Below the pieces are notes generated by a model, which worked only from the letters and a program-made list of their open reading frames with translations, did no database searches and was not told where the DNA came from. Positions 28,931 to 42,824 of a stretch of DNA of 64,000 bases are shown one piece after another (positions within the stretch are counted from its first letter, which is position 1; every line of letters starts with the position of its first letter). The position numbers were made by a program, and so were the translations under genes. The DNA lies in NCBI GenBank assembly GCA_036768485.1, contig JAVLUZ010000208.1, positions 907,070 through 971,069 on the forward strand, read 5' to 3'. The stretch comes from Mermis nigrescens. Taxonomy: Eukaryota; Nematoda; Enoplea; Mermithida; Mermithidae.

Positions 28931-29060
28931 TACACTGCCTGATGGCGTCAAACGGATGGACGTAAAGTTCTCTATGGAGATCTATTTTTTATAACTAGTA
29001 ATCAATTATAATAAACATGCCCAAACCTGCCAGTAAGCCTAGATGGGAAGGGTATGACAG

Positions 29061-29230
<170 letters not shown>

Positions 29231-29360
29231 GTGTCGTGTGTGGGGGTAGCAGCGCCACAAGCGCCACCTCCACAAACGCCACCTCCACAAGCGCCACCAA
29301 GTACCACAAGCGCCACTATGTTCCCTATAGCCGTTATAGTTAGTTTACGAAAGTAGTCAG

Positions 29361-30077
29361 CTATTTCGTCATCAGGTCGTAGCGATTATTATCTACGCGC
29401 AAATTAATTATTTTGATGGCCTTTGGCCCTTCATAAAACAAAATATTGTCCGAGTAAACTTTAATTTGGTAGTCAGGTACCAGAACGTTTTGAATTTTTT
29501 CAACAGCTTCAAGACCGTATTTTTCTTTATCAGTGTTAAGATCAGCTTTGTGCATTAAGTCTAAAGCTAGCTGCTTTTGTAAACAATGTCGCCCTTTATC
29601 GCCTTTCCTAATAGACTCCCATTTAGGGCTCTTGTCCAGCTTTGCTATTCCTGTAACAACAGCTCGAGGTAGTGATAAATTATCATTTGATGCAATTTTA
29701 ATGTACGCTCCTCTGCCCAATTGTGGTTGTTTGTCTACTACGACTACCTTGAAGATCATATCTTCGTCAAAGCTAAGCTCCTTATTGGACTGTTCTATGT
29801 TTTCTATAATACTGAAAACTTTATCGGCGTTCAGATACTGACGCTGAGTGAAAGGGACTAATATAGGGAAGTCAAGGCACGAATGCCCAATTTGCATGCC
29901 TATCAGACTGTCTGCGGGGTAATGCTTGAGTATCTGCTGGATAGCTTGCTCAAACATCTCTTCTATATCAGGACAGTCATCAAGGTTTCGAAACTTTAGC
30001 CGAAACGTCCTTGCAATTGACTTAAACCTACGAACAGAAGTGAATGAGTGTTCGCTTACTTCAAAAAATTGATCCAT
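29361..30077 (-). CDS. N-terminal fragment of Polinton protein-primed DNA polymerase B (left copy)
   Basis: 238 codons starting at ATG 30077, reading left. It matches what I recall of the N-terminal region of animal Polinton pPolB. There is an RFRNL-like start segment, an IGHSCLDFPI stretch, then RAVVTGIAKLD, KWESIRKGDKGRHCLQKQLA and VPDYQIKVYS-like blocks, and finally NLRVDNNRYDLMT, which precedes the exonuclease domain in full-length proteins. The frame stops there, just before GGCGCTTGTGG repeats and the TG tract, so the exonuclease and polymerase domains are absent. It is divergently arranged with the integrase and shares a 63-129 bp intergenic region. The left copy is uninterrupted; the right copy has a frameshift. 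Replication function is not expected from this fragment alone. Confidence 0.75.
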   Translation of the reverse strand: MDQFFEVSEHSFTSVRRFKSIARTFRLKFRNLDDCPDIEEMFEQAIQQILKHYPADSLIGMQIGHSCLDFPILVPFTQRQYLNADKVFSIIENIEQSNKELSFDEDMIFKVVVVDKQPQLGRGAYIKIASNDNLSLPRAVVTGIAKLDKSPKWESIRKGDKGRHCLQKQLALDLMHKADLNTDKEKYGLEAVEKIQNVLVPDYQIKVYSDNILFYEGPKAIKIINLRVDNNRYDLMTK

Positions 30078-30113
30078 CTTTGAGGAAAACTATAACATAT
30101 ACTGCTTGACCCT

Positions 30114-30121
30114 TATTTATA
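30114..30121 (-). promoter_or_regulatory. TATAAATA box of the polymerase-fragment gene
   Basis: TATAAATA on the minus strand, 36 nt upstream of the ATG at 30077. The mirror copy at 41534-41541 has the same 36-nt spacing. Confidence 0.65.
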
Positions 30122-30172
30122 GACAAAATTATTGCATTAGATGGTAAGAATCCAAAAACTAGGAATGTTGTT

Positions 30173-30180
30173 TATAAATA
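30173..30180 (+). promoter_or_regulatory. TATAAATA box of the integrase gene
   Basis: Lies 26 nt upstream of the ATG at 30207. It falls inside the frame that could start at 30141, which argues for 30207 as the true start. The mirror box is at 41475-41482. Confidence 0.65.
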
Positions 30181-30206
30181 GATGGAATGCTAAAAATTGT
30201 TCAAGA

Positions 30207-31265
30207 ATGGATAAAATACTTAAGAAACTGTACTACAATCCACAAAGTGGATACACTGGCGTTAATCAACTTTACACTCGCATCAAAAAGATTCGCCCGA
30301 CTGTTAAATTAGAACAAGTACGTGCCTGGCTAGAAAAGCAACCCACCTATACATTACACAAACCCGTCCTCAAGCATTATTCACGAAATAAAGTATTAGT
30401 AAGCAGCATTGATGAGCAATGGCAATGTGATATTGTAGATCTTCAATCTTTAGCGAAGCATAATGATAATTTTAAGTATCTCTTGAATTGCATAGACATT
30501 TTTTCAAAATACGCATGGTCTCTTCCTCTAAAATCTAAAAGTTCAAAAGATGTTCTGACCGCTTTTCAAAGCATTTTAAATTCATCTAATCGAAAACCGT
30601 ACAAGCTGCAAACGGACGCAGGGACCGAATTTACAAACAAGGAGTTCCAGAAATTTCTAAAATCTGAATCTATCGATTTTTTCACGACCAGAAGCGAAAC
30701 AAAAGCTAGCGTAGTTGAACGTTTTAATCGCACGCTTAAAGAACGTATGTGGCGGTACTTCACAAAGAGTAATTCGTATAAATATATTGACATATTACCC
30801 GACTTGATGAAAAATTATAATCACTCTAAGCATCGTACGATAGGTACATCGCCAGCTAATGTGACCGTAAAAAATGAGACGGACATCTTGAATAGAGCAT
30901 TTAGAATTGATAAACAGAACGTTGTCTTTAAATTTAATATTGGCGATAAAGTCCGACTGAGTAAAGTTAAGCGCACTTTTGAAAAAGGATTTTGGCCCAA
31001 CTGGACAGAGGAGTTTTTCGTAATTAAAGAAAGATATGCTCGAACCCCATCCGTTTATGTTCTAGAAGACCAAATGGGCGAAAGAGTCGAGGGTATTTTT
31101 TATGAGCCTGAACTGCAAAAAATTGAAACAAAAACTGACGATTTGTATGTAATTGAAAAGATTTTGAAAACGCGTAAGAAAGGCAATAAAACTAATTATT
31201 TAGTACGGTGGCGAGGGTACCCAGAAAAGTTTGATTCCTGGGTCTCGAACCTAATAAAGTTATAA
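30207..31265 (+). CDS. Polinton integrase, DDE catalytic core plus C-terminal chromodomain (left copy, intact)
   Basis: Retroviral-type integrase that would insert element DNA and create 6-bp target duplications. An in-frame ATG exists at 30141, but I choose ATG 30207 (352 aa). The TATA box at 30173-30180 lies between the two, and the mirror copy also begins at this Met. Numbering from 30141, the catalytic residues are D97 in QCDIVD, D159 in QTDAGTEF and E193 in VVERFNRTLKERM, with 33 residues between the last two, as in other Polinton integrases I recall. Residues about 333-374 form a chromodomain with the YVIEKIL, YLVRWRGYP and DSWVSNL signatures, which in other elements binds modified histones and can steer integration. 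The frame is open end to end. The right copy is broken one codon before the catalytic Glu. Confidence 0.92.
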   Translation: MDKILKKLYYNPQSGYTGVNQLYTRIKKIRPTVKLEQVRAWLEKQPTYTLHKPVLKHYSRNKVLVSSIDEQWQCDIVDLQSLAKHNDNFKYLLNCIDIFSKYAWSLPLKSKSSKDVLTAFQSILNSSNRKPYKLQTDAGTEFTNKEFQKFLKSESIDFFTTRSETKASVVERFNRTLKERMWRYFTKSNSYKYIDILPDLMKNYNHSKHRTIGTSPANVTVKNETDILNRAFRIDKQNVVFKFNIGDKVRLSKVKRTFEKGFWPNWTEEFFVIKERYARTPSVYVLEDQMGERVEGIFYEPELQKIETKTDDLYVIEKILKTRKKGNKTNYLVRWRGYPEKFDSWVSNLIKL

Positions 31266-31268
31266 ATA
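31261..31268 (+). promoter_or_regulatory. TATAAATA box of the 105-codon ORF (left copy)
   Basis: Overlaps the integrase stop codon region and lies 34 nt upstream of ATG 31303. The mirror site at 40385-40392 has the same spacing. Confidence 0.6.
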
Positions 31269-31579
31269 GTAAGTAATTCTGTATTTCCAATTAAAGGCAA
31301 AAATGGAGATCAGCCGATGTTTTTTCAATCATATGTTGCATCGTTTGTCACAATACACTTACTTGTCTGATGATGCAATTGGAGATTATTTTTGGCCAAA
31401 AATGAGCGAGCAATATAAGCAAACATTGCTGGAATTTGATGAGAATGCCATGTTGAGCTTCTCAAAGTATATCAGAAAACGATTAAAAAAGGGCGATAGT
31501 GATAGTGATAAAGGGGTGGGCGAAAGCCCTTCACGCAGGCTAAGAAGCCCATTGTGTACCCCACGGAAACTTTTGAGAG

Positions 31580-34500
31580 CTAGTCGCACAAACGTTTTGA
31601 GGCTTTAATAAACCCCAAAAGTTGAGCAACAGGCTCCTGTAAAACTGCCGAGGGTTCAATATGTGGAGCATGGAAGAACCTAGCTCTCAACTTATCAAAC
31701 CCAGGGCAGTGACAAAGGAAGTGGATAGAATCCTCTTCTGTGAGCAGACATTTAGCGCATTTGGGGTTGTCAGAAACCCCAATAGTACATAGGTGTCTGT
31801 TGAGGGGACAGTGTCCAGTTAAGAGACCTATTACTGTCTTAAGCAGCTTACGACCTAAGCTGATCAAGGAGCTGGCTATTTTCTTGCATGGCCTCTCCAT
31901 AAAGGATCTGGCCTGACGACAAGTCTTTTGCTCACTCCAATATTGAACATGTTGTTCCCTGACCCAGCTGTTGATGTCAGCCTTAGCAACAGCTCTGGAG
32001 ACAGCAACTACCGGTTCTGGGCCAACATGTTTACGTGCTGATCCCATTTTTGCAGCATGATCCGCAAATTCATTGCCCTCAATGCCGCAGTGACCTGGGA
32101 CCCATAATAATTTGACATTGTTATACTGCGAGAGTTCTTGCAAAGCAAGAACACACTCGAGAACTAACTTTGAAGACACTTTTGGAGATAGAAGTGACTT
32201 CAGAGCAGATTGACTGTCAGAGCAAATAAAGATGTTCTCATTTCTGAGGGCCATCAATTCTCTGCTACGGCAGCATTGCAAAATAGCAAGTATTTCTGCC
32301 TGAAAGACAGTACACATACTGCCTAAGGTAAAATACCGCATCTGTTTTAAGTTCTGGAAATAGATGCCCGCGCCTGAGGTATTCACAAAGCGTGATCCAT
32401 CAGTGTAGCAGACAATTCCAGGAGGCGAGAGAATATCCACTCTAGATTTTTCCCAGTCATCCCTAGTGGGAAACTGAATGGTATAAAGTCTACCAAAAAT
32501 AAATTTTGGTACAATGAAGTCACTTGGCATTTTGAGCACTGGCCCAATGGCCTTAGCCCAAACAGCATTGTGACCTACAACCTTGCCTTTTGCATTCCAA
32601 CTGCCAGCTATGTTTAGTCGATATGCCGCTGCCCTTGCACAACCCTCCACAAAGATATGCAGGGGAGGCAGGTCCAGCAAGACTTCCATGGCTGCAGTCG
32701 GTGTGGTGCACATGGCACTACAAATGCTGAGGCAAGCCATTCTATGTAAATGATTAAGCTGACATTTCACAGTAGACAAGTGTGCACGAGGCCACCAGAT
32801 TAGTGCAGCATAGGTGATCATGGGTCTAATCACAGACACGAAAAGCCATCGCATGACTCGTGGTGATAGACCCCAGGATTTCCCTACAGCTCTACGACAT
32901 TGCCAGAATGCATTAACAGCCTTCTGACATTTGACCTCTACATGATTGCGCCAGTTTAATTTTTGGTCCAAAATAAGTCCCAAAAATTTGACCTGGTTTG
33001 CACATTGTAGTGGCATACCATAGAAAATTGGTGGTTTAAACCCATCAAGTTTCCGTTTATGAGTGAATAGCACCATTTCGGTTTTCTGTGGGTTCACAGA
33101 TAGACCATTATGGTGACACCACTGTTCCACCTTGGCTAAACCACTTTCCATAAGTGAGGAAATGGTGTCAAGGAACCTTTCCAGTAACAAGGATTGCCAA
33201 ATCATCAGCATATCCTTGACTGTAGAGGCCAGACTTTTGCAAATTCTGCAAAAGTTCGTCCACCACAAGGCACCACAGCAAAGGAGATAGTACACCTCCT
33301 TGTGGACAGCCTTTTGTGGTAGTAAAGATCATGCTGTCTCCATAAGAGTCAGTCATGATATGGCGAAATCTTAGCATAGCATCAATCCATTTAACAATGG
33401 TCTGATGTATGCCATGATTGGATGCTGCTTTGCAGATAGCATTGAAGGTTGTATTGTCAAATGCCCCTTCAATGTCCAGAAAAACGCCCAGTGTGAATTG
33501 TTTGTTGTCTAATGCCCGTTCAATTCTAGAAACTAGTTCATGAAGGGCCGTATCAACAGACTTTCCACACTGATACGCATGTTGTGTAACATGTAAAGGA
33601 TGTTCCAGCAAGGGACCATCTCTTATAAAGCGATCAATTAATCTTTCCATACACTTCAGTAAGAAGGAGGAAAGACTAATTGGTCTGAAGGATTTTGCCA
33701 GGTCATAGGAACTACGCCCTGGCTTAGGGATAAAGATGACCTTTACTTGCCGCCAGGCTATTGGAACATAGCCAAGTGCTAGGCATCTTCGATAAATATT
33801 CACTAGGGGTCTCACCAGCATGTCCAGTCCTTCCTGCAAAAGAGCTGGAAAAATGCCATCAACCCCTGGAGTCTTGTAGGGTTCGAAGGACTTTACAGCC
33901 CAGCGAACCTTATCAGGTGTTATCACCCTGCAGGCCAGAACTTGGTCACCAAAGCCAGAAAAACTGGTTGGGCCCAATGTGTCCGGATATGCCTCATTTC
34001 CAACTGCAAAGCTGCCAGGAAAGTGAGTGTCAAGAAGGTGGAGCAGGGTTTCCCTTCGGTTGAGTGTATACTGACCCGAAGGTAGTTTTAATGAGCCAAC
34101 TTCACCTACTTGAGGTTTACATAAAATGCGGCGAAGCCTAGCAGCATCCGACATTTTTCCAATGTTGGAGCAGTAGTCCTGCCAGCACAATTGCTTTCTA
34201 ATGCGTATAAGATGCTTATACTCCTGTCGAACCTTGCGGTAATCAGCCCAATCGGAAATTGATTGAGATAATTTCGCTTGATTCCAAGCTCTCCTACTTT
34301 TCTTACGGAGGTCTTGGAGCTCCCTATTCCACCAGGGAATAGGTTTGCTCTTTCCCTCTGTAATGTGCAGGAGGTCTCATATGAGGATGTAAGTGCTTGC
34401 TGTACAAAGTCAACAGCACCCTCTACGTCCTCTTTTGTTGAGCAACTAGGAGCCCAAGAACCCAAGCGACTACTAAGGTGCTGCTTAAAAAGAGCCCAAT

Positions 34501-35251
34501 TAGTGGACCTTGGATTCCTGTACAACCTAGAAGAAAAGGAATCAGCATGTAAAGAGAAGCGTATCTGTCTGTGGTCAGATAGAGACTCCTCTTGTGAGAC
34601 ATGCCAGTTTCTTATATCATTAGTGAGGTCGAGAGAACATAAGGTTAGATCAATAACCTCCTGTCTCTTTGCCACAACAAATGTAGGTTCGCTTCCCCTA
34701 TTTAATAAAATTAAATTGGTTGAGGCTAAATATTCAGCAAGTGCAGTCCCACGTTTATTGGTATCGCTGCTGCCCCACAAGTTGTGGTGAGCATTGGCGT
34801 CACACCCAATAATTAGTGGTATCTGCTTTTTACTGCAGTAGTCAACCAGAAGAGAAAAAGCTCTACCTGGAGGTAAATGAGGAGAGTCAAAAGGCAGGTA
34901 TGCTGATGTAACAATGATGTTACGCCAGTGCCCTGCACTTTTATAACTTAACTCAACAGACACCATGTCACGGTTGCTGAATTGTTGGAGGAGCACTGGG
35001 TTAAGTTTCCGTGAGACAAGCACGCAAGCCCTTGGTCCTTGTACCACAGTCCCTACTAACACAGTATATAGTTTATCATTTAATCCACATACCTTGTTCT
35101 TATAGATCCAAGGCTCCTGGATCAACGCTAGTTTTGTCTGCAGTTTTGCTAGGCAGCGACTAAGTACACCAGTCGCACCTTGGCTATGCTGCAAGTTGAT
35201 CTGGAATAATTCCAGTACTGATTGGGATGGGAGAGTACTAGTACCAACCAT
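31580..35251 (-). pseudogene. Retrotransposon ORF2: AP endonuclease, reverse transcriptase, RNase H
   Basis: Three overlapping open blocks. 34106-35251 is the endonuclease (FQINLQHSQGA start, LIQEPWI, GCDANAHHNLWGSSDTN, LSDHRQIRF). 33168-34190 is the reverse transcriptase (FIPKPGR, FRPISLSSFLLK, QGGVLSPLLW, YADDLAIL catalytic box). 31580-33295 is the thumb plus RNase H (YTDGSR, QAEILAI, CSDSQSAL, WVPGHCGIEGNEFAD) and a terminal CAKC...HFLCHC zinc knuckle. One frameshift lies between endonuclease and RT (about 34.33-34.38 kb) and one just after the YADD box (about 33.17-33.20 kb), so no continuous ORF2 remains. Domain order and length match a full-length Loa/I-type ORF2. Confidence 0.9.
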
Positions 35252-35276
35252 CCTAATCTATGTACAAATTATGCGC

Positions 35277-36424
35277 TTATTCCAACTTGGTATGTGTCAT
35301 CAAAGTGACACGCCCAAGTTTGAAATAAGGCCTGAAGTCCAGCTGCTTAAGCACCTGGACCGATGGATGGTCCACTCCCAGGACAAAGAAGGTTTGACCT
35401 TCTTTTTCCTCCCGTTTGTAGATTCTCCAAAGGCCAGTGCACAAACCAGGGTTCTGGTTCTGCAGTCTGGAAAACACAGAGTCCCTGTCAGCTAAGCCAG
35501 GGAAAAACACTGTGAACTTGGTCAACTTGGGAAGTTCTGATTTGCTGCAAACGCGCAGATCAGCTCCTTCCCAAGGTGGATCGAGATTAGCTAAGGTATT
35601 CTTCAGCCAATCCAGAGTGAACTGATCTGCACATGTCATATAAAAAACGCCATGTGACAGGCCAGAAGAGTGAAACCTTGGAGGGGTCTTGCTAGTGCTT
35701 GCGACCTGATCCAAGGCTGTAGTTAAGACAGCTGTGAGTGTATCAAGCTTATCAGCTGGAATGCCGCCTTCGCTGCTGAAGTCGACAATACCAACTTTCA
35801 GTGATTCCTCAACTGCTGCTTTATAACTAGAAGGTTTTTAGACCTTTTAGCTGGCTGTGTCAGGCTAGTGGGCGTGTCATCCTTAGGATGTCGCCGCTTG
35901 GCCTGTTTGTTGGGCTTAGGAGTTGGGTGTGCAACAGCAATTGCTTGCTGTGCTCCCCCACTACTAATTGCCCTAGATTCTGAGGGAGCTGGGTCCTCCT
36001 GAGCAGTATTCTGCCCAGTGCCCCTGCTCGAATCAGAACCTGTAACTTCGGGCAGGTTAGTGCCAGATCCCTGGAGGGCTCTGGCAGCACGAGCCTGCTT
36101 ACGAAGTTTTCGTTTCTGGGCCCCAGTGAGTTGCTTGCGCAAATTTATGGAGCCCAGTTTCTCCGAAAGGTTCTCCAAAGGAGTCCCTTTCGCAGGTGTT
36201 CCAGTAGCATCGCCCTCAACTGCCACCTGGTTCCCTATGGCAACTGAGGAGCCACAAGTAGCTTGACCACCAGTGATGCCCTGTGACAACACACCACTAG
36301 TTGGGCTGCAAGTAGCATGACCACCAACATTGCCTTGCAACGACACAGTGCTGGCTGGGTCTCCGGAGATTTTAGAACCCTCGTCTGCCGGATACTGAGG
36401 GCCGGTCTCTAATAACTCCATCAT
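35277..36424 (-). pseudogene. Retrotransposon ORF1 (RNA-binding, DUF4780-like)
   Basis: Open blocks at 35798-36424 (208 codons) and 35277-35714 (145 codons) in different frames. The first is low-complexity and basic (KRKLRKQARAARA, KQAKRRHPKDD). The second has the W-LKNTLANLDPPWEGADLRV, LPKLTKFTVFFPG and FVLGVDHPSVQVL pattern that I associate with the DUF4780 domain of insect ORF1 proteins. A frameshift near 35.72-35.80 kb separates them. It ends 26 nt before the ORF2 start. Confidence 0.75.
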
Positions 36425-36802
36425 GGTTATAGAACAGTGAGTTGGTTCATGGCTGACAAACTCAGCAAGTTGACAGTTAGGGTCCCAGCAGGGCCCCTAG
36501 TGATCCCTTAATGGGCTCACCCTGCCAACTTCTGACGGCCACCAACCGCCAGACATGCCCAGTAGCCACTCAAGCCCTGGGGAGCAGCTCTTAGTCTGGC
36601 CTCTCAGTTAACTTCATTGAGGCACTCAAACCCCTCCACTACGATAAAGTGGCTGCTCATCGGAGGGGAAAAAGGACGATATTTACACATTATTTAAATT
36701 ATGGGAATTTCTAAGTCCGAGGCCAAATTTTATTTTGCAAACCTTTACACCACACACATAGACGAGCACCTAATCTCATCCATGTCTAAGGTTTTAATAT
36801 AA

Positions 36803-36930
36803 AGTTTTGCGGAGTTTGGAAAATTTTTGTAAAGTTTGGAAATTTTTTTGTAAAGTTTGGAAATTTTTTTGTAAAGTTTTGGAAAATTTTTGTAAAGTTT
36901 GGAAAATTTCTTGTAAAGTTTGGAAAATTA
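36803..36930 (-). repeat. AAACTTTACAAAAAATTTTCC-type minisatellite, left arm
   Basis: Five to six copies of a 19-21 bp unit with core TAAAGTTTGGAAATTTTT, lying between the convergent 105-codon ORF and TBP-like genes. Mirror array at 39924-40032. May serve as a shared 3' end or transcription stop for both genes. Confidence 0.75.
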
Positions 36931-37446
36931 TCATTTAATTTGGCATCGTTCAAGCATTGTTGAGAGTATTTTATATGCTAAATGCAACTCATGCTTGTGT
37001 TTTGCACCTGTGAGAATCATTTTTCTGCTTGTAAAGAGCAAAAATGTTACATTTCGAAATTTGTATACTAAACCAGGAAACAATTCTACTTCCGTACATG
37101 CATTTCCCATTAACCATCTCATAAAATTTACAAAGATCAATGCGAAATCCCAAGTTAGCCGAGCACAAAAAACTCAGGCTTTATTTTCAACACTGAATTC
37201 TCCATCTTTAGTATTTGGATGAATGCCTTTATCGTATTTTCGCCTTCTTGTATAGTTTTAGCTCCAACGCATACAATTTTACCCGATCTGAAAATCAGTA
37301 ATGTTGCCTGAGGTAATCCAAAATACAATACCTGGAAATCTTTGGTGATTGTATTGCGCTGTATTTGGCTATTTCAGATAGACATCATCTAGATTTAGCG
37401 TATTCGGCAGTGCTGTAGTTAGCACAATGTTCTGTATTGTGACCAT
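36931..37446 (-). pseudogene. TBP-like gene, left copy, decayed
   Basis: Inverted counterpart of 39408-39923. The C-terminal 69 codons (36931-37140) are open and retain VELFPGLVYKFRNV and LTGAKHKHEL. Upstream the frame is broken by small indels around 37.09-37.10, 37.2 and 37.37 kb. Its upstream box has mutated from TATAAATA to TTTAAATA. Confidence 0.85.
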
Positions 37447-37491
37447 TTTCTATATATACCTGTATAAATAAATCATTATTTAAAAACAAAA

Positions 37492-38139
37492 ATGATTTTT
37501 CAACATCCTTTCACCTGCGCTTGTCTCAGGGCCAACAAAATCAGGCAAAACAACGTTTGTTAGGCGACTGATTGAGGAACAGAGAATATTTGATTGATAC
37601 TTAAATTAAAAAGATTTGGTGGTGCTTCGCAGAAAACCAACCGCTTTATAAGAAAATCGATCATGTGTCATTTATAGAGGGCTTCCTGATTTTAGTTACT
37701 TTAAGCAGTTCAGCCCTACACCACAACTTTGATACTCGATGATTTAATGCAAGCAGTAAAGGTAATGCTCAAATTGTACAACTATTCACAAGGAGTTGTC
37801 ATCATTGGAATATTAGCATCATTCACATTGAACAAAACGCTTTCTTCGAAGGTCTCAGAACATCGCGTATAAACTCGGATTATATTGTTTTATTTAAAAA
37901 TCCTGCTGATCAGCTACAAGCCCAAATGCTGTCCAGGCAGCTTGTACATTACCAATCCAAAATATTTTCTAGAAGCCTATTCCGATGCTACTTCTCTTCC
38001 GCATGACTATCTTCTGATTGATCTCACTCAAAATTCTAGAGATGAGCTTAGGCTAAAAACAAATATTTTCAGTGATAGTCCCACTGTTTATATACAAAAA
38101 TCTATAAATACTAAGAAAATCACTAATGAAATAATGTAA
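37492..38139 (+). pseudogene. A32/FtsK-type packaging ATPase, left copy, frameshifted
   Basis: Starts ATG 37492 and mirrors 38712-39362. Early indels disrupt the Walker A region (ccaacaaaatcaggcaaaac remains legible). The last 84 codons are open (37885-38139) and include the YFLEAYSDATSLPHDYLLID stretch. An indel near 37.94 kb again shifts the frame. Confidence 0.85.
38103..38110 (+). promoter_or_regulatory. TATAAATA box of the pX-like gene, left copy
   Basis: Inside the 3' end of the left ATPase copy and 31 nt upstream of ATG 38142. Same spacing as in the right arm. Confidence 0.55.
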
Positions 38140-38141
38140 AA

Positions 38142-38294
38142 ATGGGTAAAGAACGATTAAAACGCAATTTTGTATGTCTACATCCCTTAGTAAAACAAAA
38201 AATTAAAAGAGACGCTATTATAAATACTGCAACTAAAGATCAAAATTTTTGTTATTCAAGATTTTTGCATCTCATTGTCCAAAGAATCGAGTAG
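38142..38294 (+). pseudogene. pX-like small protein, left copy, truncated at the palindrome axis
   Basis: Opens ATG 38142 with MGKERLKRN and stays open for 50 codons. Only about the first 34 codons are homologous to the right copy. After 38242 the sequence is the single-copy loop read in an unrelated direction. Confidence 0.65.
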
Positions 38295-38607
38295 AATATC
38301 CACTGACTTATAACGTTCGCTTATTTCAGCGGGTGTTAAAATCATTTTTCAGTGTATTTCATTTTTTACCTGTAATTGCGTCAGCTATTAAACTGCCTGC
38401 AATTGTAAGTATAGGAGTAAGTAGAAGTGGAAGAAAACAACCTTCTTGTATTATGATATTTTTTCTTTCTTTCGTACTTGCCTGTCTATTGTTTGCCAAG
38501 TATCTTATTTGATTCTGGTATCTTCGAAGTTTGTTGATATCTTTCTCAAGAAAAATGAATATTACTGTTCAGAAAATTGTTTGCACAGTCGCAGAGACAA
38601 AGGATTT
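38243..38607. other. Single-copy loop at the palindrome axis
   Basis: About 365 bp between the inverted words ctaaagatcaaa (left) and tttgatctttag (right). It contains the C-terminal half of the pX-like gene on the minus strand, present only once in the element, so the axis cuts through that gene. Confidence 0.8.
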
Positions 38608-38709
38608 GATCTTTAGTTGCAGTATTTATAATAGCGTCTCTTTGAGGTTTTTTGTTTTGCATAAGAGATGTAGACATACAATATTGCGTTTTAATCGTTC
38701 TTTATCCAT
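38359..38709 (-). pseudogene. pX-like basic/hydrophobic small protein (right copy, spans the loop)
   Basis: Starts ATG 38709, 2 nt after the ATPase stop, and runs to a TGA at 38359-38361. The length of 351 nt suits a protein of about 116 residues. The start is basic (MDKERLKRN). The C-terminal part, read in one frame, has many Arg/Lys/Gln followed by a glycine/leucine hydrophobic tail (FLPLLLTPILTIAG). This architecture resembles the small pX/pVI-like protein that follows the ATPase in other animal Polintons and adintoviruses. At least two frameshifts interrupt it. Assignment is by position and composition, not by strong motif. Confidence 0.55.
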
Positions 38710-38711
38710 TT

Positions 38712-39362
38712 TTACATTATTTCATTAGTGTTTTTCTTAGTATTTATAGATTTTTGTATATAAACAGTGGGACTATCACTGAAAATATTTGTTTTTAGCC
38801 TAAGCTCATTTCTAGAATTTTGAGTGAGATCAATCAGAAGATAGCCATGCGGAAGAGAAGTATCATCGGAATAGGCTTCTAGAAAAATATTTTGGATTGG
38901 TAGGGTAACGCTGCCTAGACAGCATTTGTGCTTGTAGCTGATCAGCAGGATTTTAAATAAGACAATATAATCCGAGTTTATACGCGATGTTCTGAGACCT
39001 TCGAAGAAAGCGTTTTGTACAATGTGAATGATGCTAATATTCCAATGATGACAACTCCTTGTGAATAGTTGTACAATTTGAGCATTACCTTTACTCTCTT
39101 GCATTAAATCATCGAGTATCAAAAGTTGTGGTGTAGGGCTGAACTGCTTAAAGTAACTGAAATCAGGAAGCCCCTCTATAAATGACACATGATCGATTTT
39201 CTTATAAAGCGGTTGGTTTTCTGCGAAGCACCACCAAATCTTTTTAATTTTAGTATCAATCAAATATTCTCTGTTCTCAATCAGTCGCCTAACAAACGTT
39301 GTTTTGCCCGATTTTGTTGGCCCTGAGACAAGGCAGGTGGTGAAAGGATGTTGAAAAATCAT
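38712..39362 (-). CDS. A32/FtsK-type DNA-packaging ATPase (right copy)
   Basis: 216 codons. In Polintons and related dsDNA viruses this ATPase drives genome packaging into capsids. Visible motifs are Walker A GPTKSGKTT (residues about 14-22), Walker B LLILDDLM (about 79-86), and an IIHIVQNAF segment matching the sensor/arginine region of the family. The C-terminus has YLLIDLTQNS. The frame is open, but a stretch of roughly 25 residues (about 138-162, ILLISYKHKCCLGS...) is out of register: one A is missing from a run near 38953 and one T is added near 38884, which restores the frame. The left copy shows the original register there. Divergent from the TBP-like gene with only 45 bp between starts. 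Confidence 0.85.
   Translation of the reverse strand: MIFQHPFTTCLVSGPTKSGKTTFVRRLIENREYLIDTKIKKIWWCFAENQPLYKKIDHVSFIEGLPDFSYFKQFSPTPQLLILDDLMQESKGNAQIVQLFTRSCHHWNISIIHIVQNAFFEGLRTSRINSDYIVLFKILLISYKHKCCLGSVTLPIQNIFLEAYSDDTSLPHGYLLIDLTQNSRNELRLKTNIFSDSPTVYIQKSINTKKNTNEIM
38741..38748 (-). promoter_or_regulatory. TATAAATA box of the pX-like gene (right copy)
   Basis: Embedded in the last codons of the ATPase gene, 31 nt upstream of ATG 38709. Its survival inside coding sequence in both arms favours function. Confidence 0.6.
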
Positions 39363-39369
39363 TTTTGTT

Positions 39370-39377
39370 TATAAATA
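39370..39377 (+). promoter_or_regulatory. TATAAATA box of the TBP-like gene
   Basis: 30 nt upstream of ATG 39408, in a 45-bp bidirectional intergenic region shared with the ATPase. If the product binds TATA boxes, this site could be autoregulatory. Confidence 0.6.
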
Positions 39378-39395
39378 ATGATTTATATATACAGG

Positions 39396-39403
39396 TATTT
39401 ATA
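39396..39403 (-). promoter_or_regulatory. TATAAATA box of the ATPase gene
   Basis: 33 nt upstream of ATG 39362 on the minus strand, in the same 45-bp intergenic region. A second weaker TATATATAAAT word lies between the two boxes. Confidence 0.6.
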
Positions 39404-39407
39404 GAAA

Positions 39408-39923
39408 ATGGTCACAATACAGAACATTGTGCTAACTACAGCACTGCCGAATACGCTAAATCTAGATGATGTCTATCTGAAATTGCCAAATGCAGCGCAA
39501 TACAATCACCAAAGATTTCCAGGTATTGTATTTCGATTACCTCAGGCAACATTACTGATTTTCAGATCGGGTAAAATTGTATGCGTTGGAGCTAAAACTA
39601 TACAAGAAGGCGAAAATACGATAAAGGCATTCATCCAAATGCTAAAGATGGAGAATTCAATGTTGAAAATAAAGCCTGAGCTTTTTGTTGGCTCGGCTAA
39701 CTTGGGATTTCGCATTGATCTTTGTAAATTTTATGAGATGGTAAATGGGAAATGCATGTACGAAGTAGAATTGTTTCCTGGTTTAGTATACAAATTTCGA
39801 AATGTAACATTTTTGCTCTTTACAAGCGGAAAAATGATTCTCACAGGTGCAAAACACAAGCATGAGTTGCATATAGCATATAAAATAGTCTCAACAATGC
39901 TTGAACGATGCCAAATTAAATGA
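39408..39923 (+). CDS. TATA-binding-protein-like protein encoded by the Polinton (right copy, intact)
   Basis: 171 aa, about the size of the conserved TBP core and lacking any N-terminal extension. Two direct repeats are visible. Repeat 1 (about 1-86): IQNIV, YNHQRFPGIVF, LLIFRSGKIVCVGAK. Repeat 2 (about 87-171): FVGSANLGFRIDL, ELFPGLVYKF, FLLFTSGKMILTGAK. All four phenylalanines that kink the TATA box in cellular TBP align here (F37, F52, F123, F138), and both SGK-V-TGAK-type turns are kept. Differences: each stirrup between the paired phenylalanines is two residues shorter than in cellular TBP (15 rather than 17 positions apart), and the repeat-2 equivalent of the conserved QN motif is EL. 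It lies between the ATPase (divergent) and a 105-codon ORF (convergent), well inside the element, and has a mirror copy, so it is an element gene and not host TBP. Inferred role: recruiting RNA polymerase to the element's TATAAATA promoters. Confidence 0.9.
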   Translation: MVTIQNIVLTTALPNTLNLDDVYLKLPNAAQYNHQRFPGIVFRLPQATLLIFRSGKIVCVGAKTIQEGENTIKAFIQMLKMENSMLKIKPELFVGSANLGFRIDLCKFYEMVNGKCMYEVELFPGLVYKFRNVTFLLFTSGKMILTGAKHKHELHIAYKIVSTMLERCQIK

Positions 39924-40032
39924 TAATTTTCCAAACTTTACAAGAAATTTTCCAAACTTTACAAAAAAATTTGCAAACTTTACAAAAAAAATTTCCAAAC
40001 TTTACAAAAAATTTTCCAAACTCCGCAAAACT
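39924..40032. repeat. AAACTTTACAAAAAATTTTCC minisatellite, right arm
   Basis: Five tandem 19-21 bp units between the convergent TBP-like and 105-codon genes. Mirror of 36803-36930, with slightly different unit spacing. Confidence 0.8.
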
Positions 40033-40350
40033 TTATATTAAAACCTTAGACATGGATGAGATTAGGTGCTCGTCTATGTGTGTGGTGTAAAGGTTTGCAA
40101 AATAAAATTTGGCCTCGGGACTTAGAAATTCCCATAATTTAAATAATGTGTAAATATCGCCCTTTTTTAATCGTTTTCTGATATACTTTGAGAAGCTCAA
40201 CATGGCATTCTCATCAAATTCCAGCAATGTTTGCTTATATTGCTCGCTCATTTTTGGCCAAAAATAATCTCCAATTGCATCATCAGACAAGTAAGTGTAT
40301 TGTGACAAACGATGCAACATATGATTGAAAAAACATCGGCTGATCTCCAT
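40033..40350 (-). CDS. Unknown 105-aa Polinton protein (intact copy)
   Basis: Begins MEISRCFFNHMLHRLSQYTY. A middle acidic/aromatic part has DDAIGDYFWPKMSEQYKQ, then basic KYIRKRLKKG, and it ends with a helical-looking tail (SMSKVLI). No signal peptide or membrane span. I do not recognise a family. It lies directly behind the integrase with its own TATAAATA box and is held in frame in one arm, so it is probably expressed. A regulatory or DNA-associated helical protein is possible, but that is a guess. Confidence 0.7.
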   Translation of the reverse strand: MEISRCFFNHMLHRLSQYTYLSDDAIGDYFWPKMSEQYKQTLLEFDENAMLSFSKYIRKRLKKGDIYTLFKLWEFLSPEAKFYFANLYTTHIDEHLISSMSKVLI

Positions 40351-40384
40351 TTTTGCCTTTAATTGGAAATACAGAATTACTTAC

Positions 40385-40392
40385 TATTTATA
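40385..40392 (-). promoter_or_regulatory. TATAAATA box of the 105-codon ORF (right copy)
   Basis: 34 nt upstream of ATG 40350, overlapping the end of the integrase copy. Confidence 0.6.
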
Positions 40393-41447
40393 ACTTTATT
40401 AGGTTCGAGACCCAGGAATCAAACTTTTCTGGGTACCCTCGCCACCGTACTAAATAATTAGTTTTATTGCCTTTCTTACGCGTTTTCAAAATCTTTTCAA
40501 TTACATACAAATCGTCAGTTTTTGTTTCAATTTTTTGCAGTTCAGGCTCATAAAAAATACCCTCGACTCTTTCGCCCATTTGGTCTTCTAGAACATAAAC
40601 GGATGGGGTTCGAGCATATCTTTCTTTAATTACGAAAAACTCCTCTGTCCAGTTGGGCCAAAATCCTTTTTCAAAAGTGCGCTTAACTTTACTCAGTCGG
40701 ACTTTATCGCCAATATTAAATTTGAAGACAACGTTCTGTTTATCAATTCTAAATGCTCTATTCAAGATGTCCGTCTCATTTTTTACGGTCACATTAGCTG
40801 GCGATGTACCTATCGTACGATGCTTAGAGTGATTATAATTTTTCATCAAGTCGGGTAATATGTCAATAAATTTATACGAATTGCTCTTGGTGAAGTACCG
40901 CCACATACGTTCTTTAAGCGTGCGATTAAAACGTTCAACTATCGCTAGCTTTTGTTTCGCTTCTGGTCGTGAAAAAATCGATAGATTCAGATTTTAGAAA
41001 TTTCTGGAACTCCTTGTTTGTAAATTCGGTCCCTGCGTCCGTTTGCAGCTTGTACGGTTTTCGATTAGATGAATTTAAAATGCTTTGAAAAGCGGTCAGA
41101 ACATCTTTTGAACTTTTGGATTTTAGAGGAACAGACCATGCGTATTTTGAAAAAATGTCTATGCAATTCAAGAGATACTTAAAATTATCATTATGCTTCG
41201 CTAAAGATTGAAGATCTACAATATCACATTGCCATTGCTCATCAATGCTACTTACTAATACTTTATTTCGTGAATAATGCTTGAGGACGGGTTTGTGTAA
41301 AGTATAGGTGGGTTGCTTTTCTAGCCAGGCACGTACTTGTTCTAATTTAACAGTCGGGCGAATCTTTTTGATGCGAGTGTAAAGTTGATTAACGCCAGTG
41401 TATCCACTTTGTGGATTGTAGTACAGTTTCTTAAGTATTTTATCCAT
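40388..41447 (-). pseudogene. Polinton integrase, right copy, frameshifted
   Basis: Two open blocks, 40935-41447 (170 codons) and 40388-40906 (172 codons). Compared with the left copy, a single extra A at about 40941 (gctagcgAtagttgaacg) shifts the frame immediately before the catalytic Glu. The chromodomain block is otherwise preserved. The first block begins at the same Met as chosen for the left copy. Confidence 0.9.
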
Positions 41448-41577
41448 TCTTGAACAATTTTTAGCTATTCCATCTATTTATAAACAACATTCCTAGTTTT
41501 TGGATTCTTACCATCTAATGCAATAATTTTGTCTATAAATAAGGGTCAAGCAGTATATGTTATAGTTTTCCTCAAAG

Positions 41578-42301
41578 ATGGATCAATTTTTTGAAGTAAG
41601 CGAACACTCATTCACTTCTGTTCGTAGGTTTAAGTCAACTGCAAGGACGTTTCGGCTAAAGTTTCGAAACCTTGATGACTGTCCTGATATAGAAGAGATG
41701 TTTGAGCAAGCTATCCAGCAGATACTCAAGCATTACCCCGCAGACAGTCTGATAGGTCATGCAAATTGGGCATTCGTGCCTTGACTTCACCTATACGGTA
41801 TTAGTCCCTTTCACTCAGCGTCAGTATCTGAACGCCGATAAAGTTTTTAGTATTATAGAAAACATAGAACAGTCCAATAAGGAGCTTAGCTTTGACGAAG
41901 ATATGATCTTCAAGGTAGTCGTAGTAGACAAACAACCACAATTGGGCAGAGGAGCGTACATTAAAATTGCATCAAATGATAATTTATCACTACCTCGAGC
42001 TGTTGTTACAGGAATAGCAAAGCTGGACAAGAGCCCTAAATGGGAGTCTATTAGGAAAGGCGATAAAGGGCGACATTGTTTACAAAAGCAGCTAGCTTTA
42101 GACTTAATGCACAAAGCTGATCTTAACACTGATAAAGAAAAATACGGTCTTGAAGCTGTTGAAAAAATTCAAAACGTTCTGGTACCTGACTACCAAATTA
42201 AAGTTTACTCGGACAATATTTTGTTTTATGAAGGGCCAAAGGCCGGCAAAATAATTAATTTGCGCGTAGATAATAATCGCTACGACCTGATGACGAAATA
42301 G
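41578..42301 (+). pseudogene. N-terminal PolB fragment, right copy, frameshifted
   Basis: Mirror of 29361-30077. An extra T near 41757 (gataggTcatgc) shifts the frame after about 60 codons. A further 6-bp difference lies at about 41787-41805. From 41759 the correct frame is open to the same NNRYDLMTK stop. The box TATAAATA at 41534-41541 is retained. Confidence 0.88.
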
Positions 42302-42435
42302 ATGACTACTTTCGTAAACTAACTATAACGGCTATAGGGAACATAGTGGCGCTTGTGGAACTTGGTGGCGCTTGTGGAGGTGGCGTTTGTGGAGGTGGCG
42401 CTTGTGGACTCCCACAGGGACTGCTACCCCCAACA

Positions 42436-42436
<1 letters not shown>

Positions 42437-42517
<81 letters not shown>
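42437..42517. repeat. (CA)n microsatellite, right arm
   Basis: About 80 bp of CA repeats, the mirror of the longer TG tract at 29061-29230. It marks the outer limit of arm homology: sequence outside it differs between arms until the terminal repeats. Confidence 0.95.
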
Positions 42518-42519
<2 letters not shown>

Positions 42520-42824
42520 ACAATGTTGTTTCGGAACCAATTCTTTCGGAACCAACTGTTACTGTAAGAAAAAATGAAGCTCATGAAGCTGATGCATAAA
42601 CATTCTAAAATTGGTTAAAAATTAGGAAAAAACTGTTTCCCTAAGCTTGCTTTACACTACTTTACACTTTACACCAGCTTTAAACTTTACACTAGTCCCA
42701 TCAAAATACAACAATATTACCTTAACCCTCACCCACAACTTATATTGCCTTTGTTTCGGAACAAGTTGTTTCGGAACCAGCTGTTACTGTAAAAAATTCG
42801 ATAAAATGCGGAGGAACCCCTTTT
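42520..42824. other. Right-arm-specific subterminal segment
   Basis: Contains three tttcggaaccaa-type words (42529, 42545, 42769) and several TTTACAC words. No match in the left arm. Confidence 0.5.

Follow-up and report, generated by a model that had tools for sequence, protein, structure and literature searches.

A TATA-binding protein gene and putative TATA boxes in Polinton-type elements of the nematode Mermis nigrescens

A palindromic element with a TBP gene

The window analysed here is a stretch of 64,000 nucleotides of contig JAVLUZ010000208.1 from the nematode Mermis nigrescens; an earlier reading made from the letters alone (the sequence-only reading) had implied an arthropod host, which is incorrect. 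At 39408–39923 (+) the window contains an open gene for a TATA-binding protein (TBP) of 171 aa. It lies in a palindromic element that spans 29055–42522 including a retrotransposon, the (GT)n tract being the last sequence common to both ends. The palindrome measures approx. 13.5 kb in all, of which the retrotransposon accounts for about 5 kb. The proposal that the gene belongs to a mobile element with a mirror copy was borne out by inverted arms found around TBP. The outer arms (29255–31498 and 40155–42407) are 99–100% complementary, and the inner arms (36717–38202 and 38649–40118) are 91–99% complementary in their main ungapped pieces. From the outside to the inside, the arms are arranged in the order 238-aa gene, RVE integrase with chromodomain, short ORF, TBP gene, ATPase-type gene and centre fragments.

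The left copy of the 238-aa gene is located at 29361–30077 (-; tblastn 2.7e-97) and belongs to a family of seven ORFs present in 5 of 20 genomic loci compared (see below), while the right copy at 41578–42301 (+) is split into two ORFs according to the ORF list and tblastn. The left integrase (30141–31265, +; rve 4.2e-14, Chromo 2.1e-8) is one open frame and the right one (40388–41447, -; rve 1.8e-14, Chromo 7.8e-9) is broken into two ORFs. The TBP gene lies, as described, between an ORF read as a packaging ATPase and an unknown ORF. The latter is a short ORF of 105 aa at 40033–40350 (-) with relatives in other elements (a family of eight ORFs in 8 of the 20 loci); its mirror copy at 31303–31608 (+), recognized from the ORF list and the inverted repeats, is cut by the retrotransposon. 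The packaging-ATPase-type gene at 38712–39362 (-) matches Pox_A32 with an E value of 3.4e-4, which is below the curated cut-off, and is related to Walker-motif ATPase ORFs elsewhere in the genome, from which its middle stretch differs. It is oriented head to head with the TBP gene, and 45 bp separate the two start codons. Directly 3′ of the TBP stop codon a 21-bp minisatellite extends from 39925 to 40022 (+; mirror copy at 36813–36929), whose core recurs in the window-type loci L041, L046, L047 and L048.

In the left arm, the TBP gene is represented by a broken mirror copy at approximately 36931–37446 (-), which was delimited by the inverted repeats I6, I7, I8 and I21 and by tblastn pieces at 36995–37171 and 37239–37313. 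A broken ATPase gene mirroring that of the right arm was detected by tblastn at 37517–37967 (+). The same program placed fragments of the 116-aa core-like and 188-aa genes in both orientations at the palindrome centre (38125–38726), and revealed none of the other capsid-module families and no PolB fragment in the window. The ORFs at 31580–36424 (-) inside the left arm belong to a non-LTR retrotransposon foreign to the system (Exo_endo_phos_2 1.2e-22, RVT_1 2.4e-27, RNase_H 1.9e-12); its endonuclease, reverse transcriptase and RNase H domains are encoded in overlapping frames. Because the left TBP copy is broken, the left arm harbors a retrotransposon and the centre consists of gene fragments, the window copy is a truncated, defective derivative split by the retrotransposon. 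Its ends are the palindrome arms with (GT)n, and no matching 6-bp flank was seen by eye. Palindromic relatives were observed at loci L036 and L047 of the 20 loci, both chosen partly for their paired TBPs. By analogy, snap-back defective genomes of protein-primed replicons resemble such head-to-head palindromic Polinton derivatives.

Several lines of evidence identify the 171-aa ORF as a predicted two-lobe TATA-binding protein. The two-repeat TBP signature noticed at the outset was recovered with the Pfam TBP profile (PF00352), which matched two stretches of the protein (E 3.3e-41; score 139.4 with a cut-off of 22.9 bits), and the best PDB sequence match was the archaeal 1mp9 (E 3.4e-29). The AlphaFold model, calculated from an alignment of the window protein with 19 database homologues, reached a pLDDT of 94.7 and a pTM of 0.84 and adopts the TBP fold. 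All 44 PDB fold matches obtained with Foldseek at E < 0.001 were TBPs or TBP complexes, judged by title or sequence. The TMq of this saddle fold was 0.92 to both 1cdw and 1c9b, the latter being the human TBP-TFIIB-DNA complex. All four intercalating phenylalanines are present, as had been claimed. Of the two SGK...TGAK turns in the same description, the second is as stated and the first reads SGK...VGAK. A DNA-contacting asparagine of the C-lobe is replaced by leucine in the window TBP; the host TBP and the metazoan, TRF and archaeal rows used for comparison all have it, and it is lost in the W and B lineages of element TBPs. Both glutamates assigned to TFIIB contact (C.L3.2 and C.L3.4) are present in the window protein.

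Element TBPs across the genome

Profile searches of the genome covered 523,963,438 bases in 860 contigs and yielded at least 150 Pfam TBP matches, all above the cut-off, after scoring of 150 of the 2551 candidates from the first look. Two of the 150 listed matches are exons of the host gene, and the other 148 collapse to at least 137 genes. Stop codons occurred in 8 of the 150, among which the best-scoring copies are over-represented. From the matches listed, 20 loci of 9.9 kb were picked to span the match types, and these contexts were searched with five window genes, one A-lineage zinc-finger-type gene and three further TBPs. A second element gene was located beside TBP in 19 of the 20 contexts, all of which had been selected by TBP presence; L039 had none. 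Integrase was found near TBP in 8, ATPase in 10 and a protease-family ORF in 7 of them.

ORFs of at least 95 aa formed 14 families that occur at three or more of the 20 loci. Seven of them are TBP, a major-capsid candidate, F-box proteins, the short ORF, integrase, the 188-aa protein and protease; the other seven are the 238-aa protein, a zinc-finger-type protein, ATPase, a 116-aa core-like protein, a 145-aa protein, a 258-aa protein and a PolB-like fragment. The names are for the most part working labels; the Pfam cut-off was passed by TBP, integrase, chromodomain and F-box only. The ATPase ORF of L046 matched Pox_A32 at 1.1e-4, under the cut-off, and Walker motifs were read from the alignment of the ATPase relatives. 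A candidate adenain-type protease gene, absent from the truncated window copy, is represented by the ORF of L035 with a Peptidase_C5 match of 4.5e-4 (20.4 bits versus a cut-off of 21.3). His, Asp and Cys residues, presumably the catalytic ones, are conserved in five relatives. The major-capsid candidates comprise 363–449 aa, and the L035 copy is without a Pfam match. One and the same strand encodes TBP, protease, capsid candidate and ATPase at loci L037 and L044.

A PolB gene (PF03175) was detected on the same strand upstream of the D-type TBP in these two loci, at distances of 10.0 and 11.1 kb. At a third D-type place, in C93 (the others lie in C47 and C49), PolB is located 9.5 kb from TBP on the same strand. 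Among the TBP and PolB matches listed, PolB occurred within 25 kb of 4 of the 137 TBP genes versus 0–3 in shifted controls. The PolB-like fragment of L040 reached only 0.0047 against Pfam. Proximity to PolB was thus seen for the D-type TBP, and the window copy has no PolB. Among the 9.9-kb contexts, no single W-type locus was seen to contain every gene of the Polinton set. In IMG/VR, no confirmed relative was returned by scans with TBP, P0014, integrase, ATPase or protease.

The element TBPs fall into five lineages, W (including the window copy), A, B, C and D, and the non-W proteins are 32–47% identical to the window protein. Their genes are intronless and repeatedly have integrase, ATPase, protease and capsid-module-type genes as neighbours. 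At the level of coding sequence, the element TBP is evidently under purifying selection: dN/dS ranged from 0.07 to 0.26 in eight of ten pairs; of the other two, one gave 0.52 and one no defined value. Judged by gene content, TBP is a recurrent component of a widespread Polinton-type lineage in the M. nigrescens genome. The sequence-only reading had named two findings that would speak against it, namely no structural match to TBP, or a recent retrocopy of host TBP that is absent from all related elements. Neither applied: the predicted fold is that of TBP, the gene is no recent retrocopy (see below), and TBP was found in multiple element lineages, with element neighbours in all but one context. 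An assembly artefact or a lone capture was rejected, since 19 of the 20 other contexts have TBP beside a related element gene.

Further features were noted in the vicinity of TBP genes. At C51:3876189-3893195, TBP occurs three times on the same strand at intervals of approx. 8.38 kb, and every match contains a single TAG and a single TAA; the triplet is apparently a tandem amplification of a decayed element. F-box-type genes (nine ORFs in 6 of the 20 contexts) include those at L033:5678-6544, L042:8167-8589 and L045:7779-8180, with an F-box-like match of 1.8e-11 in L033. They are possibly involved in ubiquitin-related manipulation of the host. A small Cys-rich zinc-finger-like protein is encoded near TBP at L031:5550-5876, L033:4375-4758 and L046:1468-1791, and a 142-aa protein with an AT-hook motif (5e-4) before TBP at L050:4290-4718.

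The TBP gene of the host is intron-bearing with at least two exons. Its product shares 96% identity with an SRA protein, 90% with the TBP of Trichuris and 91% with that of Trichinella, and nests among nematode TBPs in a tree of 63 rows. The same tree unites 12 of the 13 element TBPs with ten SRA/JGI proteins (91/89), and the D-lineage TBP stands outside this clade on a long branch. AU tests rejected a topology in which the window-type TBP is held with metazoan and host TBP (p 8.3e-6) and did not reject one in which the 13 element and ten SRA/JGI rows form one clade (p 0.315). A reduced tree, from which ten long or doubtful rows including the D-lineage TBP were omitted and in which the grouping was chosen after the first tree, placed 12 element and 10 SRA/JGI TBPs on one side of a branch (100/98). 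The phylogenetic comparison with cellular TBP thereby separates the element TBPs from that of the host. The gene may go back to an ancient capture from an early eukaryotic, an archaeal or a viral source.

To compare interaction surfaces, contact positions described in PMC7221094 were mapped onto the alignment; the position of H2.21 depends on gap placement. According to that paper, TFIIB contacts TBP at two glutamates of the C-lobe, and TFIIA, TAF1, Brf1, Brf2 and Mot1 dock on a basic patch of the N-lobe. Each of the two glutamates is retained by 20 of the 21 non-redundant element TBPs, and all ten SRA/JGI TBPs have both. The exceptions are L022 with lysine at one of the positions, as also in its near-copies L023 and L024, and L038, which lacks the other glutamate. 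Phenylalanine occupies the four intercalating positions in 21, 21, 20 and 15 of the 21 element TBPs; the fourth, in the C-lobe, is tyrosine in four and valine in two. With regard to the basic patch, R/K before the first phenylalanine is found in 20 of the 21 proteins, H2.13 in 11, H2.17 in two and H2.21 in three. By alignment, the patch is lost in part only, H2.17 and H2.21 being mostly gone.

TFIIB is not amplified in the genome: three matches were obtained (10 of 10 candidates scored) versus at least 150 for TBP, and no TFIIB was present among 30 unclassified context ORFs of at least 120 aa. According to PMC7221094, viral TBPs keep the C.L3.2 glutamate at about 40%, and most such genomes have a TFIIB-like gene. 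A TBP of giant-virus type with its own TFIIB is unsupported by the counts obtained here. The surface pattern is the one that would be expected of a TBP that borrows host TFIIB and has a changed regulator surface.

Putative TATA boxes upstream of element genes

All genes of the window element that keep their start, namely the 238-aa gene, integrase and short ORF of both arms as well as the right TBP and ATPase genes, have an exact TATAAATA motif 34–44 bp before the ATG. The box of the TBP gene is located at 39370–39377 (+; -38 from the ATG) and that of the ATPase gene at 39396–39403 (-; -41). In the right arm, boxes precede the short ORF (40385–40392, -; -42), the integrase (41475–41482, -; -35) and the 238-aa gene (41534–41541, +; -44). 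Their left-arm counterparts are found before the 238-aa gene (30114–30121, -; -44), the integrase (30173–30180, +; -34 from Met at 30207) and the short ORF (31261–31268, +; -42). The left integrase box derives from the box list, the others from the upstream scan and the box list. The broken left-arm TBP copy has no exact TATAAATA box of its own in the window box list. Eight copies of the motif were counted on both strands of the window flanks (50.3 kb).

Putative TATA boxes were also enriched and well placed before element genes elsewhere. TATAAATA was present in 35 of 80 non-redundant 100-bp upstream regions from the 20 contexts versus a mean of 1.4 and a maximum of 6 in 200 rounds of dinucleotide shuffling, and in 0.7% of 100-bp windows of host flank. 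A k-mer count of the upstream regions made without any preset motif returned ATAAATA and TATAAAT as the top 7-mers. Box starts fell between -49 and -31 in 28 of 36 cases, and 34 upstream boxes were on the right strand and 5 on the wrong one. In non-coding DNA, with copies not thinned, the rate was 7.1 boxes per kb on the right strand within 60 bp upstream of genes and 0.22 per kb elsewhere; 27 boxes fall in coding sequence, and the box of the capsid candidate overlaps the preceding gene. The zinc-finger-like gene was preceded by TATAAATA in 5 of 5 non-redundant upstream regions.

The exact box was missing from 45 of the 80 upstream regions, including all of those of the 188-aa (0/6) and protease (0/5) genes, and was found before only 4 of 17 TBP genes. 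Since protease, 188-aa and most TBP genes have no box, other signals must exist. Broken down by lineage, a box within -65 to -15 occurred in 20 of 39 upstream regions of W, 4 of 11 of B, 4 of 20 of C, 1 of 5 of A and 1 of 13 of D, and in 3 of 6 at the mixed locus L041. TATAAAAG or TATATAAG was present in 5 of the 13 D-lineage upstream regions; as both D contexts have near-identical TBPs (97%), box type and TBP lineage effectively covary once. Transcription starts approx. 30 bp downstream of a TATA box, and leaders predicted by this rule would therefore be short, often about 5–15 nt. TATAAATA is a canonical TATA box that host TBP should bind as well. The boxes are no proof of use by the element TBP because they are also good sites for the host protein.

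Possible functions and comparison with known systems

We consider it probable that the element TBP, together with host TFIIB, sets up Pol II initiation at TATA boxes that belong to the element itself. According to this model, which combines sequence comparison with a predicted structure, the TBP would bind TATAAATA boxes approx. 30–50 bp before the start codons of many element genes and bend the DNA with its phenylalanines. Its conserved C-terminal stirrup would recruit host TFIIB and RNA polymerase II. Because part of the basic N-lobe patch (TFIIA, TAF1, Brf, Mot1) is lost, the protein may also evade some host control. We thus infer DNA binding, use of TFIIB, transcription of the element and escape from host regulators. 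The sequence-only reading had suggested that the element could build its own pre-initiation complex. This idea is supported with one change, in that a wholly own complex is probably not formed: as TFIIB is not amplified and the contact glutamates are mostly intact, the element TBP more likely joins host TFIIB and Pol II.

More tentatively, transcription of the elements might be partly orthogonal to that of the host. In such a system the TBP lineages would have co-evolved with their boxes, the 45 bp between TBP and ATPase genes would serve as a bidirectional promoter in the window type, and escape from host regulators would be combined with the use of host TFIIB and Pol II. The co-evolution that forms part of this joint proposal would assign TATAAATA to the W, A, B and C lineages and TATAAAAG or TATATAAG to the D lineage.

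It is rather unlikely that host TBP reads the element boxes and the element TBP acts on the host, be it as a competitor or decoy for TFIIB or Pol II or by altering host expression. The canonical boxes should indeed be bound by host TBP, and a protein with mostly intact TFIIB contacts could titrate TFIIB. However, the window TBP gene and its neighbours carry boxes themselves, which fits self-regulation, and the present results contain no sign of host targets.

A role in integration or replication, in which TBP would guide the integrase to promoters occupied by TBP/TFIIIB or open the ends for protein-primed replication, is very unlikely. It would leave the placement of TATAAATA before genes and the strand bias unexplained, and integrase is near TBP in only 8 of the 20 contexts of 9.9 kb, although in the window type TBP lies near a chromodomain integrase. 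Pol III loci might be targets in such a case, as Brf1 and Brf2 also use the C-lobe contact of TBP according to PMC7221094.

That TBP is a functionless passenger retained by recent spread only is highly improbable. Many of the listed copies are near-identical, several elements are decayed, stops are found in a few of the listed matches (biased, as mentioned, to best-scoring copies) and contact residues are changed in L022, L036 and L038. Against this stand the low dN/dS between diverged pairs (0.07–0.26) and the phenylalanine and glutamate contacts, which are mostly kept across lineages 32–47% identical to the window protein. Finally, a recent captured copy or retrocopy of host TBP that lies in the element by chance would likewise be intronless but is ruled out for practical purposes by the tree position, the AU test (p 8.3e-6), the occurrence of TBP in several element lineages and the identity of the window TBP to the metazoan TBPs P0136 and P0242 of 34%, whereas host TBP is 90–91% identical to those of Trichuris and Trichinella.

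Polintons are regarded as close to the root of many dsDNA viruses of eukaryotes. Among mermithid relatives, the long-read assembly of Romanomermis culicivorax is reported to contain 6.5 Mb of polintons (PMC10879605). Initiation by an element TBP at matching boxes with host TFIIB would be a simple, testable answer to the question of how Polinton genes are activated in one large animal lineage. If true, the capture of basal transcription factors extends beyond giant viruses, mirusviruses and herpesviruses, a captured TBP can work with host TFIIB so that a viral partner is not needed, and a natural TBP with an altered regulator-binding surface is on offer.

The Mermis elements resemble Polintons/Mavericks (polintoviruses, adintoviruses) in the RVE integrase with chromodomain and ATPase-type gene of the window, in the candidate adenain-type protease and capsid-module-type genes of its relatives and in the PolB-family gene near D-lineage copies. 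They differ from described Polintons in the TBP gene and the TATAAATA boxes. The Polinton set given in PMC4028283 consists of PolB, integrase, ATPase, protease, MCP and penton. In term searches of the Polinton papers PMC4028283, PMC10120064, PMC11071308 and PMC3671162 'TATA' did not occur, nor did 'transcription' in PMC4028283; as far as these searches show, the four papers do not address the activation of Polinton genes. Topic literature searches, which covered the top of longer lists and part of the papers on Polintons and TATA-binding proteins or on nematode polintons, returned no report of a Polinton-borne TBP.

Like the TBPs of giant viruses (NCLDV), the element protein is a two-lobe TBP encoded by a dsDNA virus-type element. 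Where BFVD fold matches of the window TBP bear a name, they are mostly giant-virus proteins; many rows are nameless, and identity was 6–22% over the best 50 matches under E 0.001. Giant-virus TBPs mostly come with a viral TFIIB and, according to PMC7221094, keep C.L3.2 at about 40%, whereas in Mermis 20 of 21 proteins retain the contact and TFIIB is unamplified. For the alga Cymbomonas, PMC10675990 describes sporadic TBP genes in endogenous elements that putatively derive from mirusviruses. These are, like the Mermis elements, endogenous viral elements with TBP genes; they are described as lacking packaging ATPase and double-jelly-roll capsid genes. The nearest working analogy is the TBP-like protein of beta/gamma-herpesviruses (BcRF1/ORF24), which acts on TATT boxes and, as here, combines a viral TBP-like protein with a recurrent core-promoter box (PMC4893493). 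The herpesvirus protein has about 10% identity to TBP and works in a multi-subunit viral complex on TATT late promoters, whereas Mermis has a plain TBP and TATAAATA.

Among cellular proteins, insect TRF is likewise a second TBP beside the usual one, but TRF rows group with eukaryotic TBPs and the element clade lies outside. The element TBP shares with archaeal TBP its minimal size, the FPG in both stirrups and the absence of a long N-terminal tail; the archaeal rows, however, are on a separate branch (99/97). Polintons and viral TBPs were each already known, and a Polinton that carries a TBP gene together with TATA-type boxes appears, from the literature searched, to be new.
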